Source: Paenibacillus sp. R14(2021) (lineage in GTDB: Bacteria; Bacillota; Bacilli; Paenibacillales; Paenibacillaceae). From it: 64,000 nt of DNA. The stretch lies in assembly GCF_019431355.1 (NCBI RefSeq), contig NZ_CP080269.1:2825501-2889500 (forward strand), read 5' to 3'. The notes below the pieces were generated by a model. The model ran no database searches. It saw only the letters and a program-made list of their open reading frames with translations, and was not told where the DNA came from. Shown here piece after piece: positions 36,147-59,880 of this stretch; position 1 is the first letter of the stretch; each line of letters opens with the position of its first letter. The translations under genes and the position numbers were made by a program.

Positions 36147-37496
36147 TTACAGCCGAGCTTCCAGTTCGGCTTTCTCTTTCTCGTAGCCCGGCTTGCCGAG
36201 GAGTGCGAACATGTTCTTCTTGTACGCCTCAACGCCGGGTTGATCGAAGGGATTCACGCCCAGCAGATAGCCGCTGATGCCGCAGGCGATCTCGAAGAAA
36301 TAAACCAGGTAGCCGAACGTGTAAGGCTTCATGTCCGCAATATTCACGACGAAGTTCGGCACTTGACCGTCCGTATGCGCAAGCAGCGTGCCTTCGAAAG
36401 CTTTCTTATTTACAAAGTCCATCGTTTTGCCGGTCAGGAAGTTGAGGCCGTCCAGATCTGCTTCATCATGCCCAATCGAGATTTGCTCGGCAACTTGCTC
36501 GACTTGAATGACCGTTTCGAAGATATTGCGGTTGCCCTCTTGAATGAATTGACCCATGGAGTGCAGATCCGTCGAGAAGTCGACTGCCGCCGGGAAAATC
36601 CCCTTGTAGTCTTTGCCTTCGCTCTCGCCGTACAGCTGTTTCCACCATTCCGATACGAAGTGAAGCGCAGGCTCGTAGTTCACGAGAATCTCGGTCGCTT
36701 TGCCTTTGCGGTACAGCGCGTTGCGGGCAGCAGCGTATTGGTAGGCCTCGTTCTCGGCCAGGTTCGGATTGTTGTAGGCACGCGATGCGTCCGCCGCGCC
36801 TTGCATCATCTCTTCGATGTTGATCCCTGCAGCTGCAATCGGCAGTAACCCTACCGCGGTGAGCACGGAATAACGTCCGCCGACATCGTCCGGAATAACG
36901 AACGACTCGTAGCCTTCTTCATTAGCCAGCTTCTTCAGCGCGCCTTTCTCGCGATCCGTCGTCGCGTAGATCCGTTTGCGCGCTTCTGCTTTGCCATATT
37001 TCGCTTCCAACGCTTCGCGGAAGACGCGGAATGCGATGGCCGGTTCCGTCGTCGTGCCGGATTTGGAAATCACGTTGATCGACCAGTCGCGGCCTTCAAG
37101 CAATTGGAGCAGATGCGTAACGTATGTAGAGCTGATATTGTTGCCGGCAAACAGCACCTGCGGTGTCTGGCGCTGTTCGTTAGGCAGCAGGTTATAGAAC
37201 GAGTGTGACAGCATTTCAATAGCCGCGCGAGCGCCTAGATAAGAACCACCGATACCAATCACGATCAGCACCTGGGAGTCGGATTTGATTTTCGCGGCCG
37301 CTTTCTGAATGCGGGCAAATTCTTCTTTGTCGTAGTTCGTCGGCAGGTCGATCCAGCCGAGGTAATGGGAGCCCGCGCCCGTTCCGCTGCGAAGCTGCTC
37401 GTGAGCCGTGCGAACCTGTCCTGCCAAATGATCAATCTCATGCTGGCCGATAAAACCAAGCGCTTTGCTGTAATCAAATGTAACTGCTTTCGTCAT
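36147..37496 (-). CDS. pgi: Glucose-6-phosphate isomerase
   Basis: Interconverts glucose 6-phosphate and fructose 6-phosphate in glycolysis and gluconeogenesis. It has 449 residues, the short Gram-positive type. Signatures include [33 protein letters not shown], and the [14 protein letters not shown] region with its catalytic-site residues. TAGGAGG lies 9 nt before the ATG. The leader is unusual: it contains six copies of a 66-bp structured repeat, the last ending in the ribosome-binding site (37506-37907). yigZ follows without a gap. Confidence 0.95.
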
Positions 37497-37514
37497 GGGG
37501 TTGAACCTCCTAAA

Positions 37515-37907
37515 AGTTTTTGCGACACTTCCTGATTATTCTTCGTTGCGAGCAAAAACTCGCTTCGGAAGCATAGGCTTAGTTTTTGCGAAACTTCCTG
37601 ATTATTCTTCGTTGCGAGCAAAAACTCGCTTCGGAAGCATAGGCTTAGTTTTTGCGAAACTTCCTGATTATTCTTCGTTGCGAGCAAAAACTCGCTTCGG
37701 AAGCATAGGCTTAGTTTTGCGATAGCTTCCTCATTATTCTTCGTAGCGAGCAAAACTCGCTTCGGAAGCATAGGCTTAGTTTTGCGACACTTCCTGATTA
37801 TTCTTCGTAGCGAGCAAAACTCGCTTCGGAAGCATAGGCTTAGTTTTTGCGGCACTTCCTGATTATTCCTCGTTGCGAGCAAAAACTCGCTTCGAAAGCC
37901 GCACCTT
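37515..37907 (-). repeat. Six tandem copies of a ~66-bp structured leader element
   Basis: Copies begin at 37515, 37581, 37647, 37713, 37778 and 37842. Each contains AGTTTTTGC and its complement GCAAAAACT, a GCGAG-CAAAAA-CTCGC hairpin, and a palindromic AAGC-ATAG-GCTT boundary. In copies 4 and 5 the T run is four instead of five and the matching A run is also four, a compensatory change. The copy nearest pgi joins its ribosome-binding site. The sequence is open as a repetitive peptide reading frame, but two copies change frame, so coding is unlikely. A diverged copy precedes pepF. Confidence 0.9.
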
Positions 37908-37960: not shown

Positions 37961-37989
37961 AGAATAATGGATTTCTTAGCCAAAAACAA
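37961..37989 (-). promoter_or_regulatory. Candidate promoter for the pgi leader
   Basis: Read leftward: -35 TTGTTT (37989-37984), 17-bp spacer, -10 TATTCT (37966-37961). Transcription from here would include all six leader repeats, giving a leader of about 460 nt. Confidence 0.5.
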
Positions 37990-57986: not shown

Positions 57987-59780
57987 TTAAGCTTCCGTCA
58001 ACCCCAAGAAAGCATCCACATCCGCCAATACAAGCGCTACCGCCTCGCGCCAGAAGCCCGCCTCATCGAGACGAACGCCCAAATGCTTCTCCGCCAACGC
58101 TTCTACGGTCATCAGCCCCGTATCCCGAAGAAGCGCGACGTAACGCTCGGAGAACGATGCGCCTTCCTTCTTGGCGATCGCGTAGATGCCGCTGCTGAAC
58201 AAGTAGCCGAATGTATACGGGAAGTTATAGAACGGTACGTCCGTCAAGTAGAAATGCAGCTTTGCCGCCCAAAAATGCGGATGCAGCTTGCCAAGCGCGC
58301 CGCTGAATGCTTCCTGCTGGGCAGCCTCCATCAGCTTGCCAAGCTCTTCTTGGTCCACCATGCCCGCACGGCGTTTCTCGTAAAAACGCGTCTCGAACAA
58401 GAAGCGGGCATGGATGTTCATGAAGAAAGCAACCGCGCTTTGCAGCTTTTCATCCAGCAGCGCCAGCTTTTCGTCGCGCTCCGTCGCCGCTTCCAATGCC
58501 GAATCCGCTACGATCATCTCGGCAAACGTGGAGGCTGTTTCGGCTACGTTCATCGCGTACTCCTGCGCAAGCGGCGGCAAATCGTTCATGACATGCTGAT
58601 GATAGGCATGACCCAGCTCGTGCGCCAATGTGGACACATTGTCCGGCGTACCGGAGTAGGTCATGAAAATCCGCGTCTGCTCGCTCTTCGGAAACGAAGT
58701 GCAGAAGCCCCCGGGACGTTTGCCCGGACGGTCTTCGGCCTCGATCCATGCATCGCGGAACGCCATTTCCGTAAATTCGGCCAAATCCGAGCTGAATGCG
58801 CCGAATTGCTCCATAATCGCTGCTGCCGCATCGTCATATGGAATCGTTCGGTGCGAGGAACCAAGCGGCGCGCCGATATCATGCCAGTCAAGCTGGGTCA
58901 GTCCCAGCAGCTTGGCTTTCCGTTCCAGATAGCGAACGAGCTTCGGCTTGCCCTCGTTTACGGCCGACCACATGGCATTCAGCGTCGCCTCGCTCATCCG
59001 GTTCATTTCAAGCGGCTCCTTGAGCACGGAGTTCCAGCCCCGCTTATCGTAAAGCTTTAGCCGAAAACCCGAGATCCGGTTCAGCGTGTCCGCGCATAGA
59101 TCTGCCTGCTCGCCCCACTCCCGTTCCCACTCAGGGAACGCAGCCTCTCGGACCGAGCGCTCGCTGCTCGAAAGCCGGTTGCTCATCTGACCTGCCGACA
59201 GCTGCTTGGTTTCGCCGTCCGCCTCCGTTACTTGAAAGCGAATGCGGGAGACGATCGTGTTGTAGAAATCGCCCCAGCCGTGATAGCCGTCAACCGCCAG
59301 CTCAGCCGCCAACGCTTCTTGGTCCGGCGCCATCTTCTCCTTTGCGGCTTCACGGCGTTCGTTCAATACAAACGCAACCGGGCGCGCAGCCTCGGTCTGC
59401 AGCCATGCTTGCCATGCAGCATCGTCCGTCTGCAGCAGCTTCTCATCGAAGCTCGTCAGCGCGGCGTTGAACTTGGCAGCCATCGTCTTTACGCGGTCAT
59501 TCAAGCCGTTCGCGGCTGCATCTTTCATCTGCTGCGCCTGCAGGCAGCCAACGAAGGAGTCCGATTGACGCAGTCGAAGCAGAATCGACTGTACGACGGT
59601 TGTCCAAGCGGTCAATTGCTCAGATGCCGCGGAGACATCTTTCGGCTGCGCAGCCAGTTCTTTCGCGAGCGCTTCAATATCGCGCTCCATCCCGCCAAGC
59701 TCCTCCAGGAAAGCCGACGAACTCGAGCCTCCTGCATAAATCGCATCCAAATCCCAGGTTGTTGGATAATGAGTTCCCAT
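57987..59780 (-). CDS. pepF: M3 family oligoendopeptidase F
   Basis: A 597-residue cytoplasmic zinc peptidase that breaks down short peptides. The HExxH motif is in STLAHELGHAYHQHV, and the third ligand glutamate lies in the following TASTFAEMIV. The N-terminal helical domain is full length. AGGAGG lies 6 nt before the ATG at 59780; the ORF is open to 59888 only because the leader repeat reads through. That leader carries a diverged copy of the element found before pgi. Confidence 0.95.
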   Translation of the reverse strand: MGTHYPTTWDLDAIYAGGSSSSAFLEELGGMERDIEALAKELAAQPKDVSAASEQLTAWTTVVQSILLRLRQSDSFVGCLQAQQMKDAAANGLNDRVKTMAAKFNAALTSFDEKLLQTDDAAWQAWLQTEAARPVAFVLNERREAAKEKMAPDQEALAAELAVDGYHGWGDFYNTIVSRIRFQVTEADGETKQLSAGQMSNRLSSSERSVREAAFPEWEREWGEQADLCADTLNRISGFRLKLYDKRGWNSVLKEPLEMNRMSEATLNAMWSAVNEGKPKLVRYLERKAKLLGLTQLDWHDIGAPLGSSHRTIPYDDAAAAIMEQFGAFSSDLAEFTEMAFRDAWIEAEDRPGKRPGGFCTSFPKSEQTRIFMTYSGTPDNVSTLAHELGHAYHQHVMNDLPPLAQEYAMNVAETASTFAEMIVADSALEAATERDEKLALLDEKLQSAVAFFMNIHARFLFETRFYEKRRAGMVDQEELGKLMEAAQQEAFSGALGKLHPHFWAAKLHFYLTDVPFYNFPYTFGYLFSSGIYAIAKKEGASFSERYVALLRDTGLMTVEALAEKHLGVRLDEAGFWREAVALVLADVDAFLGLTEA

Positions 59781-59795: not shown

Positions 59796-59880
59796 AGTTT
59801 TTGTGAGTGAAAGGAGCAAAAACTCACTTCGAAAGCATACGCTTAAATTTTTGCTAATCTTTTCTTCGCGTTGCGAAATA
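59796..59880 (-). repeat. Diverged copy of the pgi leader element before pepF
   Basis: 59796-59844 aligns with one pgi unit, lacking its middle 20 bp; 59845-59880 is a more degenerate partial unit. Shared features are AGTTTTTG with CAAAAACT, the CTTCGAAAGCAT region, and direct continuation into the ribosome-binding site. Where pgi copies pair GCGA with TCGC, this copy pairs GTGA with TCAC, again a compensatory change. It also contains CTCCT, complementary to the AGGAG site. Confidence 0.8.

Follow-up and report, generated by a model that had tools for sequence, protein, structure and literature searches.

A tandemly repeated hairpin element ahead of pgi represents a family placed before ribosome-binding sites in Paenibacillus and suggests control at the RNA level

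The window analysed here, a stretch of 64,000 nucleotides from Paenibacillus sp. R14(2021) (contig NZ_CP080269.1, positions 2,825,501 to 2,889,500), contained the glucose-6-phosphate isomerase gene pgi (36147..37496, minus strand; NF010697, 760.9 bits) preceded by an array of six tandem units, all on the minus strand, which is the strand of pgi. The original prediction had placed six copies between a candidate promoter and pgi, and the copies were recovered at the starts it gave, in agreement with the independent detection by Tandem Repeats Finder (5.9 copies, period 66, score 663). Counted from pgi, units 1 to 3 occupied 37515..37580, 37581..37646 and 37647..37712 (91.0, 91.6 and 91.6 bits with covariance model R2), followed by unit 4 at 37713..37777 (65.2 bits), unit 5 at 37778..37841 (75.0 bits) and unit 6 on the promoter side at 37842..37907 (77.6 bits), all on the minus strand. 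Their lengths in this order were 66, 66, 66, 65, 64 and 66 nt, and the units were near identical to each other. Unit 1 was made up of the tag GCTTCCGAAG (37563-37572), the 5' arm AGTTTTTGC and the 3' arm GCAAAAACT. Units 4 and 5 carried the arms AGTTTTGC/GCAAAACT, with the T and A runs both reduced from five to four as had been noticed before, and unit 6 had a degenerate start (AAGGTGCGGCTTTCG).

The unit nearest to pgi ran without a gap into TTTAGGAGG (37506..37514, minus strand, by sequence reading), the spacer and ribosome-binding site of pgi, which confirmed the direct junction described earlier; the pgi start codon lay 18 nt past this unit. On the far side of the array, reading of the minus strand gave a candidate -10 box (TATTCT, 37961..37966) and a candidate -35 box (TTGTTT, 37984..37989) with a spacing of 17. 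A script located the box around the candidate -10 ahead of pgi at 17 of 23 pgi loci; four others were without the box as written, and two were not parsed. A seventh copy, also anticipated, was a single short-loop unit at 59796..59844 (minus strand, R2, 43.3 bits) ahead of an M3-family oligoendopeptidase (pepF-like) gene starting at 59780 on the minus strand (TIGR02290, the gene being cut at the end of the searched stretch). Rfam (release 15) gave no match at or above the curated threshold in the 64-kb window, which bears out the earlier statement that no family was known for the array; at a lax threshold, the sole match in the array region was a sub-threshold GOLLD match (14.4 bits versus 150).

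On the mRNA strand, the element consisted of a conserved tag, a hairpin, a spacer of 1-4 nt, the ribosome-binding site and the start codon. The tag read UAUGCUUNCGANGY, also written as AAGY.UAUGCUUNCGA(A/U)GY. The hairpin had mostly 7-10 bp and a loop of very variable size, and it ended about 3 nt before AGGAGG. Among 128 elements selected to have a stem of 5 bp or more, stems of 7-10 bp were found in 114, and the spacing between stem and ribosome-binding site was 3 nt in 100 and 1-4 nt in all. Unit length at other loci ranged from about 40 to about 80 nt.

A 129-codon open reading frame (37493-37882, minus strand) spanned most of the array, and ATG occurred within most tags, as would be expected if the array encoded a repetitive peptide or upstream reading frames starting at UAUG. 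Such a coding role is extremely unlikely, given that the 65- and 64-nt units shift the frame inside the array, that unit length varies as widely as it does at other loci, that the variable positions of the tag correspond to codon positions 1 and 2 rather than 3, and that several copies are without ATG.

The array was part of a dispersed family. BLAST with one unit returned 27 matches at 13 sites in the 5.98 Mb R14(2021) genome, the six units of the array included, and unit matches in this genome exceed chance. The R2 covariance search returned 56 matches at E<=1, distributed over 29 loci, of which 26 lay in sense directly ahead of a ribosome-binding site and an ORF when their contexts were read (19 of 21 at E<=0.01). 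Two of the three exceptions (3771612 and 3188316) belonged to a different repeat type, and the third (4674149, E 0.9) was probably a chance match. The 26 loci included one (1712291) followed by a short ORF, of 68 codons by one start and 26 by another, and the mutL locus, where the ribosome-binding site reads AAAGGG.

The genes downstream of the R14(2021) elements, as identified with NCBIfam, encoded Pgi, purine-nucleoside phosphorylase, UAAP2, a CDF transporter, MutL, PurH, a NirB-like protein, HisS, the M3 oligoendopeptidase, ParE/GyrB-like, YtxC-like, LiaH/PspA-like and PpsR-like proteins, an LLM oxidoreductase, an ABC ATPase, PdxS, AtpD, a nucleotide sugar dehydrogenase, PurM and Ffh. Several of these best matches were below the curated cut-off, some of the genes being cut at the end of the stretch (this was not so for LiaH, the ABC ATPase and L021); the downstream genes of L011, L017 and L173 gave no NCBIfam match, and L176 and L335 were left out of that search. 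No common pathway was visible among the R14(2021) downstream genes from their NCBIfam identities, and a common metabolic theme of the riboswitch kind was not found, the genes being unrelated. Two genes of one pur cluster, purH (L015) and purM (L183), each carried an element.

Same-strand upstream neighbours were identified at ten R14(2021) loci (DeoB, PrmA, UAAP1, SecF, MutS, PurN, GlyS, a D-Ala-D-Ala carboxypeptidase-like protein, AtpG and PurF), and they ended between 3 nt inside the first unit and 261 nt before it. Elements thus lay between mutS and mutL, purN and purH, purF and purM, atpG and atpD, deoB and pnp, and UAAP1 and UAAP2. By a rough ORF rule applied to 144 elements, the upstream ORF was on the same strand in 92 and on the other strand in 52, so the element appears to sit often, if not always, between the genes of operons as judged from gene order. 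Because several copies lie between same-strand neighbours of known operons, an RNA element is favoured over a promoter element. The latter reading, in which the tag would act in the DNA as an internal promoter, an operator or a transcription-factor site (TATGCT as a -10 box, CTTNCGAAG as a half-palindrome), draws on the TATGCT and the near palindrome held by the tag and on the 52 elements with an other-strand ORF upstream. It is nevertheless very unlikely: inspection revealed no -35 box at the right distance, pgi has its own promoter box upstream, and an operator needs neither compensation in a stem nor a fixed spacing to the ribosome-binding site.

The element was widespread beyond R14(2021). 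BLAST found a match in 18 of 39 genomes and covariance model R1 in 71 of 119 genomes drawn from the order, R14(2021) being included in both counts; the R1 matches, and the loci picked from them, rest mostly on sequence, while R2 has the right stem register. With R2, 28 of 30 chosen genomes gave a match; units per genome numbered 42 to 148 among the 15 genomes selected for high copy number and 0 to 25 among the 15 selected for low copy number (at most 150 candidates were scored per genome, and the high counts may be lower bounds). Forty loci in other genomes were chosen from the R1 matches listed (13 of G136, 7 of G132 and 20 of ten other genomes), and 36 of them stood in the sense orientation immediately ahead of a ribosome-binding site and an ORF, 35 by script and L305 on reading (GGGGTG and an ATG frame, found with a second script). 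Two further loci were doubtful: L312, whose GGGGGG site comes with a long frame that lacks a standard start codon, and L328, with AGGAG and an ATG frame closing after 34 codons. L315 and L332 were misses. All six matches in three low-copy genomes from the genus of R14(2021) preceded a ribosome-binding site.

A pattern scan of named genomes yielded at least 120 stretches, and 75 of the 80 among the matches listed were titled Paenibacillus, the other five being an Elusimicrobia MAG, a Bacilli MAG, a Paenibacillaceae MAG and two 'Bacillus sp.' records. Since the selecting pattern fixes AGTTTT and restricts bases 13, 19 and 20, these positions are biased in the 120 stretches. Of 123 array ends in these stretches, automatic calling placed 96 ahead of a ribosome-binding site and an ORF, but at least five of the placements look wrong (L051, L074, L092, L134 and the minus strand of L142). 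On reading, 11 of the remaining 27 ends had a site after all, were followed by further units or were cut off, and 16 were not so placed. Many Paenibacillus genomes thus carry a tagged, predicted RNA hairpin directly before the ribosome-binding sites of unrelated genes; its copies often number in the dozens and are often arranged in tandem.

The main hairpin was supported by compensatory change. In a model-free test in which arms were swapped between elements, at least 7 contiguous pairs were found in 109 of 149 elements, compared with a mean of 47.2 and a maximum of 62 in 1000 swaps; the arms were taken by anchors outside the hairpin, some 10-15 chance or wrongly anchored sites were kept among the 149, and relatedness was uncontrolled. 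In the R2 alignment of 117 distinct units, which was fitted to the main stem and hence leans towards it, 96.7% of cells paired and two-sided changes occurred at all nine stem pairs (34 cells versus 1.8 +/- 1.3 in shuffled alignments, none of 500 shuffles being as high); controls with a slid register gave 0-5 two-sided cells. Compensated stems were found ahead of parE (AGTTAATTGC/GCAATTAACT), ahead of atpD (CTTTCC/GGAAAG) and in a further example (AGTTTTCTGC/GCAGAAAACT), and three of four stems at parE-like genes were fully complementary and different. On passing from the R1 to the R2 register, copies with changed stems rose in score (parE copy, 51.1 to 59.2; L011 copy, 60.5 to 65.9) and copies with imperfect stems fell (L044, 78.8 to 74.7; L010, 69.3 to 65.7). 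Folding of single units often did not favour the main hairpin, with more than 4 expected hairpin pairs in 42 of 128. The covariance search that had been proposed, for leader matches adjoining ribosome-binding sites with a covarying stem, was thus positive (26 of 29 loci in R14(2021) and 36 of 40 elsewhere, or 38 with the two doubtful ones), the covarying stem being AGTTTTTGC/GCAAAAACT.

The original prediction had described two mutually exclusive pairings, and of these the main AGTTTTTGC/GCAAAAACT stem stood, whereas the local GCGAG/CTCGC hairpin exceeded shuffles but did not qualify as a general switch partner. It was present in 30 of 72 units (shuffle mean 18.2, maximum 27) and missing in 42, with 43 of 134 versus 28.7 when all loci were considered. 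Its covariation amounted to 13 cells versus 6.2 in shuffles (1 of 500 as high), and some short-loop copies had it in other letters (GCCAG/CTGGC, GTCAG/CTGAC, GCTAG/CTAGC). One strong and one weaker covarying helix were thus detected, and the local hairpin, weakly to moderately supported by these comparisons, appears confined to a subset of units.

These pairings bear on the possibility of a translational switch, in which the hairpin would expose or hide the ribosome-binding site in alternation with the local hairpin or with a CUUNC:GGAGG pairing, under the control of a small molecule, temperature, an sRNA or a protein. The AG of the 5' arm is common to the main and local hairpins, the local hairpin covaries as described, and CUUCC:GGAGG occurred in the lowest-energy fold of some copies, with more than 2 expected such pairs in 25 of 128. 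We regard this switch as improbable, because the local hairpin is missing in most units, the tag:loop helix shows no excess covariation, the tag base that would have to pair with this site is A in 9 of 42 elements (loci not chosen by pattern), and predicted accessibility of the ribosome-binding site showed no clear average effect (0.360 versus 0.333 shuffled, real higher in 74 of 128, p 0.056). General sequestration of the ribosome-binding site was likewise unsupported by these accessibility values, which barely differ from shuffles.

Other pairings were rejected or found no support. A tag hairpin (UGCUU-NCG-AAGYR) was 90.0% paired but had no two-sided changes, below shuffles; a tag:loop helix (AUGCUUCC/GGAAGUAU) covaried no more than shuffles; and a pseudoknot of this helix with the main hairpin was judged impossible from loop lengths, by reasoning. 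Exact matches of ATGCTTNCGANG numbered 79 on either strand of the R14(2021) genome versus 20 in a backwards control, and reading of these matches for complementarity of the tag to rRNA revealed no group of many identical sites of the kind expected from rRNA operons. GGA occurred within the hairpin loop in 54 of 128 elements; CsrA-type repression involves a GGA in a hairpin loop plus a GGA at the ribosome-binding site.

Presence and absence of the element were compared at pgi alone. On reading, an intact element was found at pgi in 7 of 22 genomes of the genus (R14(2021) itself, G003, G005, G009, G010, G013 and G021), with roughly 1 to 6 units per site. These sites carried different yet complementary stems, for instance AGTTTTTGC/GCAAAAACT and AGTTTGT/ACAAACT. 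Remnants were seen, for instance in G017, where the tag was followed at once by AACTTTTAGGAGG, and in G008 and G015, which kept the arm adjoining the ribosome-binding site; at the remaining sites, the element was absent or unclear. The range of unit numbers and the remnants fit the earlier suggestion of amplification by slippage or recombination. Like arms directly flank the units, and recombination between such arms could add or remove copies.

This turnover would also suit a dispersed repeat of the REP or MITE kind, perhaps mobile, which inserts beside ribosome-binding sites and is tolerated there, with effects on the host being secondary. Unit numbers from 0 to 148 per genome among the 30 chosen genomes and the near identity of the units at pgi point the same way, and since related modules were also found within intergenic repeats that lie apart from ribosome-binding sites, a mobile-repeat origin is possible. 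The original prediction had named scatter in intergenic DNA, without regard to gene starts or orientation, as the pattern that would count against it. Most elements were found in sense before ribosome-binding sites, but intergenic repeats in the genus g17 and in some named species came close to that pattern. In g17, 23 of 24 loci read consisted of the tag and hairpin within an intergenic repeat, not at a ribosome-binding site; 22 of these 23 had recognisable common flanks on reading, and the left neighbour was on the other strand in 18 of 23. The exception (L344) was a copy before a 290-codon frame with AAGGTGG, presumably atpG.

The g17 genomes G052, G055 and G077 contained an intergenic repeat of about 180 nt with a strong consensus, enclosing the tag and a hairpin AGCTTTC..GAAAGCT (L342-L343, L346-L347, L349-L352 and L354-L368, L366 having other flanks). 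At 12 loci examined it lay in reverse orientation, 79-334 nt ahead of an ORF, and ten ORFs that followed belonged to unrelated families or to none (PurC, heavy-metal ATPase-like, MalF-like and others). Three intergenic copies in R14(2021), at 3188316 (L336, about 1817), 3771612 (L337, about 1613) and 2813581 (L338, about 1582), had the tag and GAATGCTGCA.TCC..GTCT..CGAC..TGAACGCAAACCAA and did not precede a ribosome-binding site; Rfam gave no match at these three copies, the sole match being a 23S rRNA end elsewhere in L336. In another repeat type (L074, the minus strand of L142, L150, L158 and L315), the tag and hairpin were followed by a GGAGGAGCGGAGTGTAGGCAAAACCTACATGAGCACC-like stretch, with a second tag in reverse after it in L074, L142 and L158; the stretch of L142 also held a ZTP riboswitch match elsewhere. 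In P. phyllosphaerae, the hairpin was followed by CTCTGAGGACACCCG (L051, L092, L107 and L113) or CTTTTAGCCACGG (L066), without a ribosome-binding site, and in Paenibacillus sp. P96 (L079, L099 and L120) a stretch with GGGGATGAATCTCGG stood after the hairpin in place of the ribosome-binding site. An Rfam match to 5_ureB_sRNA (126.9 bits) in the Paenibacillus stretch L107 (5477-5772, plus strand) perhaps corresponds to urease coding sequence.

On balance, a mere mobile repeat is rather unlikely to account for the family: the elements keep an almost constant orientation and distance relative to the ribosome-binding site, and complementary stems with compensatory changes persist in diverged copies. 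The array ends showed no listed inverted repeat pair; a MITE would have terminal inverted repeats and target-site duplications. A Y1 (REP-type) transposase was rejected as the mover, PF01797 being absent from the R14(2021) genome and no commoner in high-copy (3 of 15) than in low-copy genomes (4 of 15). REP elements, which are accompanied by RAYT (Y1) transposases, are short hairpin repeats with a conserved tag and many copies, scattered in intergenic DNA without fixed orientation to genes; the Paenibacillus element differs by its fixed orientation at ribosome-binding sites and by the lack of a Y1 transposase in R14(2021). The pneumococcal BOX, RUP and SPRITE repeats are likewise dispersed, structured Firmicute repeats, described in the accessible part of the source as over-represented between convergent genes and parasitic, some being transcribed (PMC3049150), whereas most members of the Paenibacillus family stand in sense at ribosome-binding sites. 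Dispersed repeats were either the source of the module or derived from it.

Comparison across loci establishes the position, the orientation and the compensatory change of the predicted hairpin. Because of these three features and the fixed distance, the element would act in RNA, at or just before the ribosome-binding site. With moderate confidence, the array is read as an enlarged form, in tandem, of a leader element that occurs dispersed and would act in cis on the mRNA to set translation or mRNA stability of the next cistron. Action at the RNA level, as first proposed for the array, is supported by the 26 of 29 and 36 of 40 placements and by the stem compensation, from which an effect on translation or stability may be inferred. 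The element would thus set the protein yield of the next cistron. Most likely, the structured 5' end beside the ribosome-binding site would insulate or stabilise the downstream message or help the 30S subunit to load, possibly as the stabilising hairpins of two Bacillus subtilis operons, cggR-gapA and glnR-glnA, do. Recombination between like GCAAAAACT arms would let the units expand and contract, so that unit number could act as a dial.

By analogy, a stabilising or insulating hairpin as in cggR-gapA appears to fit best. According to the part of the source available, the cggR-gapA hairpin mainly raises the abundance of the cut (processed) downstream mRNA (PMC11780869). The likeness to cggR-gapA and glnR-glnA, as far as that part of the source describes them, lies in a hairpin after the first operon gene and 5' of the next cistron. 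At several Paenibacillus loci, a hairpin was likewise found 5' of the ribosome-binding site that belongs to an internal cistron, the operons being judged from gene order. The B. subtilis hairpins are treated in that source site by site, whereas in Paenibacillus one homologous tag and hairpin recurs before many genes, occurs in tandem and abuts the ribosome-binding site. In the Ruminiclostridium cip-cel operon, stem-loops that are likewise intergenic set stoichiometry, but the portion of the report at hand concerns one operon and mentions no common tag or genome-wide dispersal (PMC10311766). The TAACTGA direct repeats of Beggiatoaceae, just upstream of the start codons of unrelated genes, have been proposed as post-transcriptional sites in the accessible text (PMC4679880); they share the tandem arrangement before the start, but are heptamers of other sequence in organisms where that text calls canonical ribosome-binding sites rare. 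Intrinsic terminator features (a G+C-rich stem and a long U run) were not seen by inspection, the stem being A+T-rich and mostly 3 nt before AGGAGG.

Since pairing leaves the conserved tag unexplained, a bolder reading adds a trans-acting factor or nuclease that would recognise it. Tentatively, Paenibacillus and relatives may possess a global post-transcriptional regulon in which one RNA-binding factor or nuclease reads UAUGCUUNCGANGY beside the hairpin. In high-copy species it would do so at the ribosome-binding sites of many housekeeping genes, unrelated to each other and often internal to operons, and tandem unit number would be an evolvable dial.

A search of the open-access literature, most subscription papers being outside its scope, found no description of the repeated leader element. 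In the accessible part of a transcriptome study of Paenibacillus riograndensis SBR5, 5' UTRs were checked against Rfam and the ribosome-binding site is given as a plain aGGaGg (PMC5670726), and the main text of PMC11109978, as far as available, does not mention Paenibacillus. The element points to an undescribed way of setting gene expression post-transcriptionally, as far as can be judged from comparison of genomes. If it acts as inferred, one RNA module, repeated at ribosome-binding sites, would govern many core genes across a large soil-bacterial clade; such a layout was found neither in Rfam nor in the open-access literature examined. Tandem numbers that differ between species at the same gene would then provide a natural dosage series relating 5' structure to protein output and mRNA life, and the module would be a ready part for expression tuning in Paenibacillus. 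If the family is instead a repeat that prefers ribosome-binding sites, such a target preference would itself be unusual.

The hisS leader (L018, upstream of 1611, minus strand) had a further arrangement, with a terminator-like hairpin and T run, possibly of a T-box, followed by two units, a layout as if control at the level of transcription preceded the repeated element.
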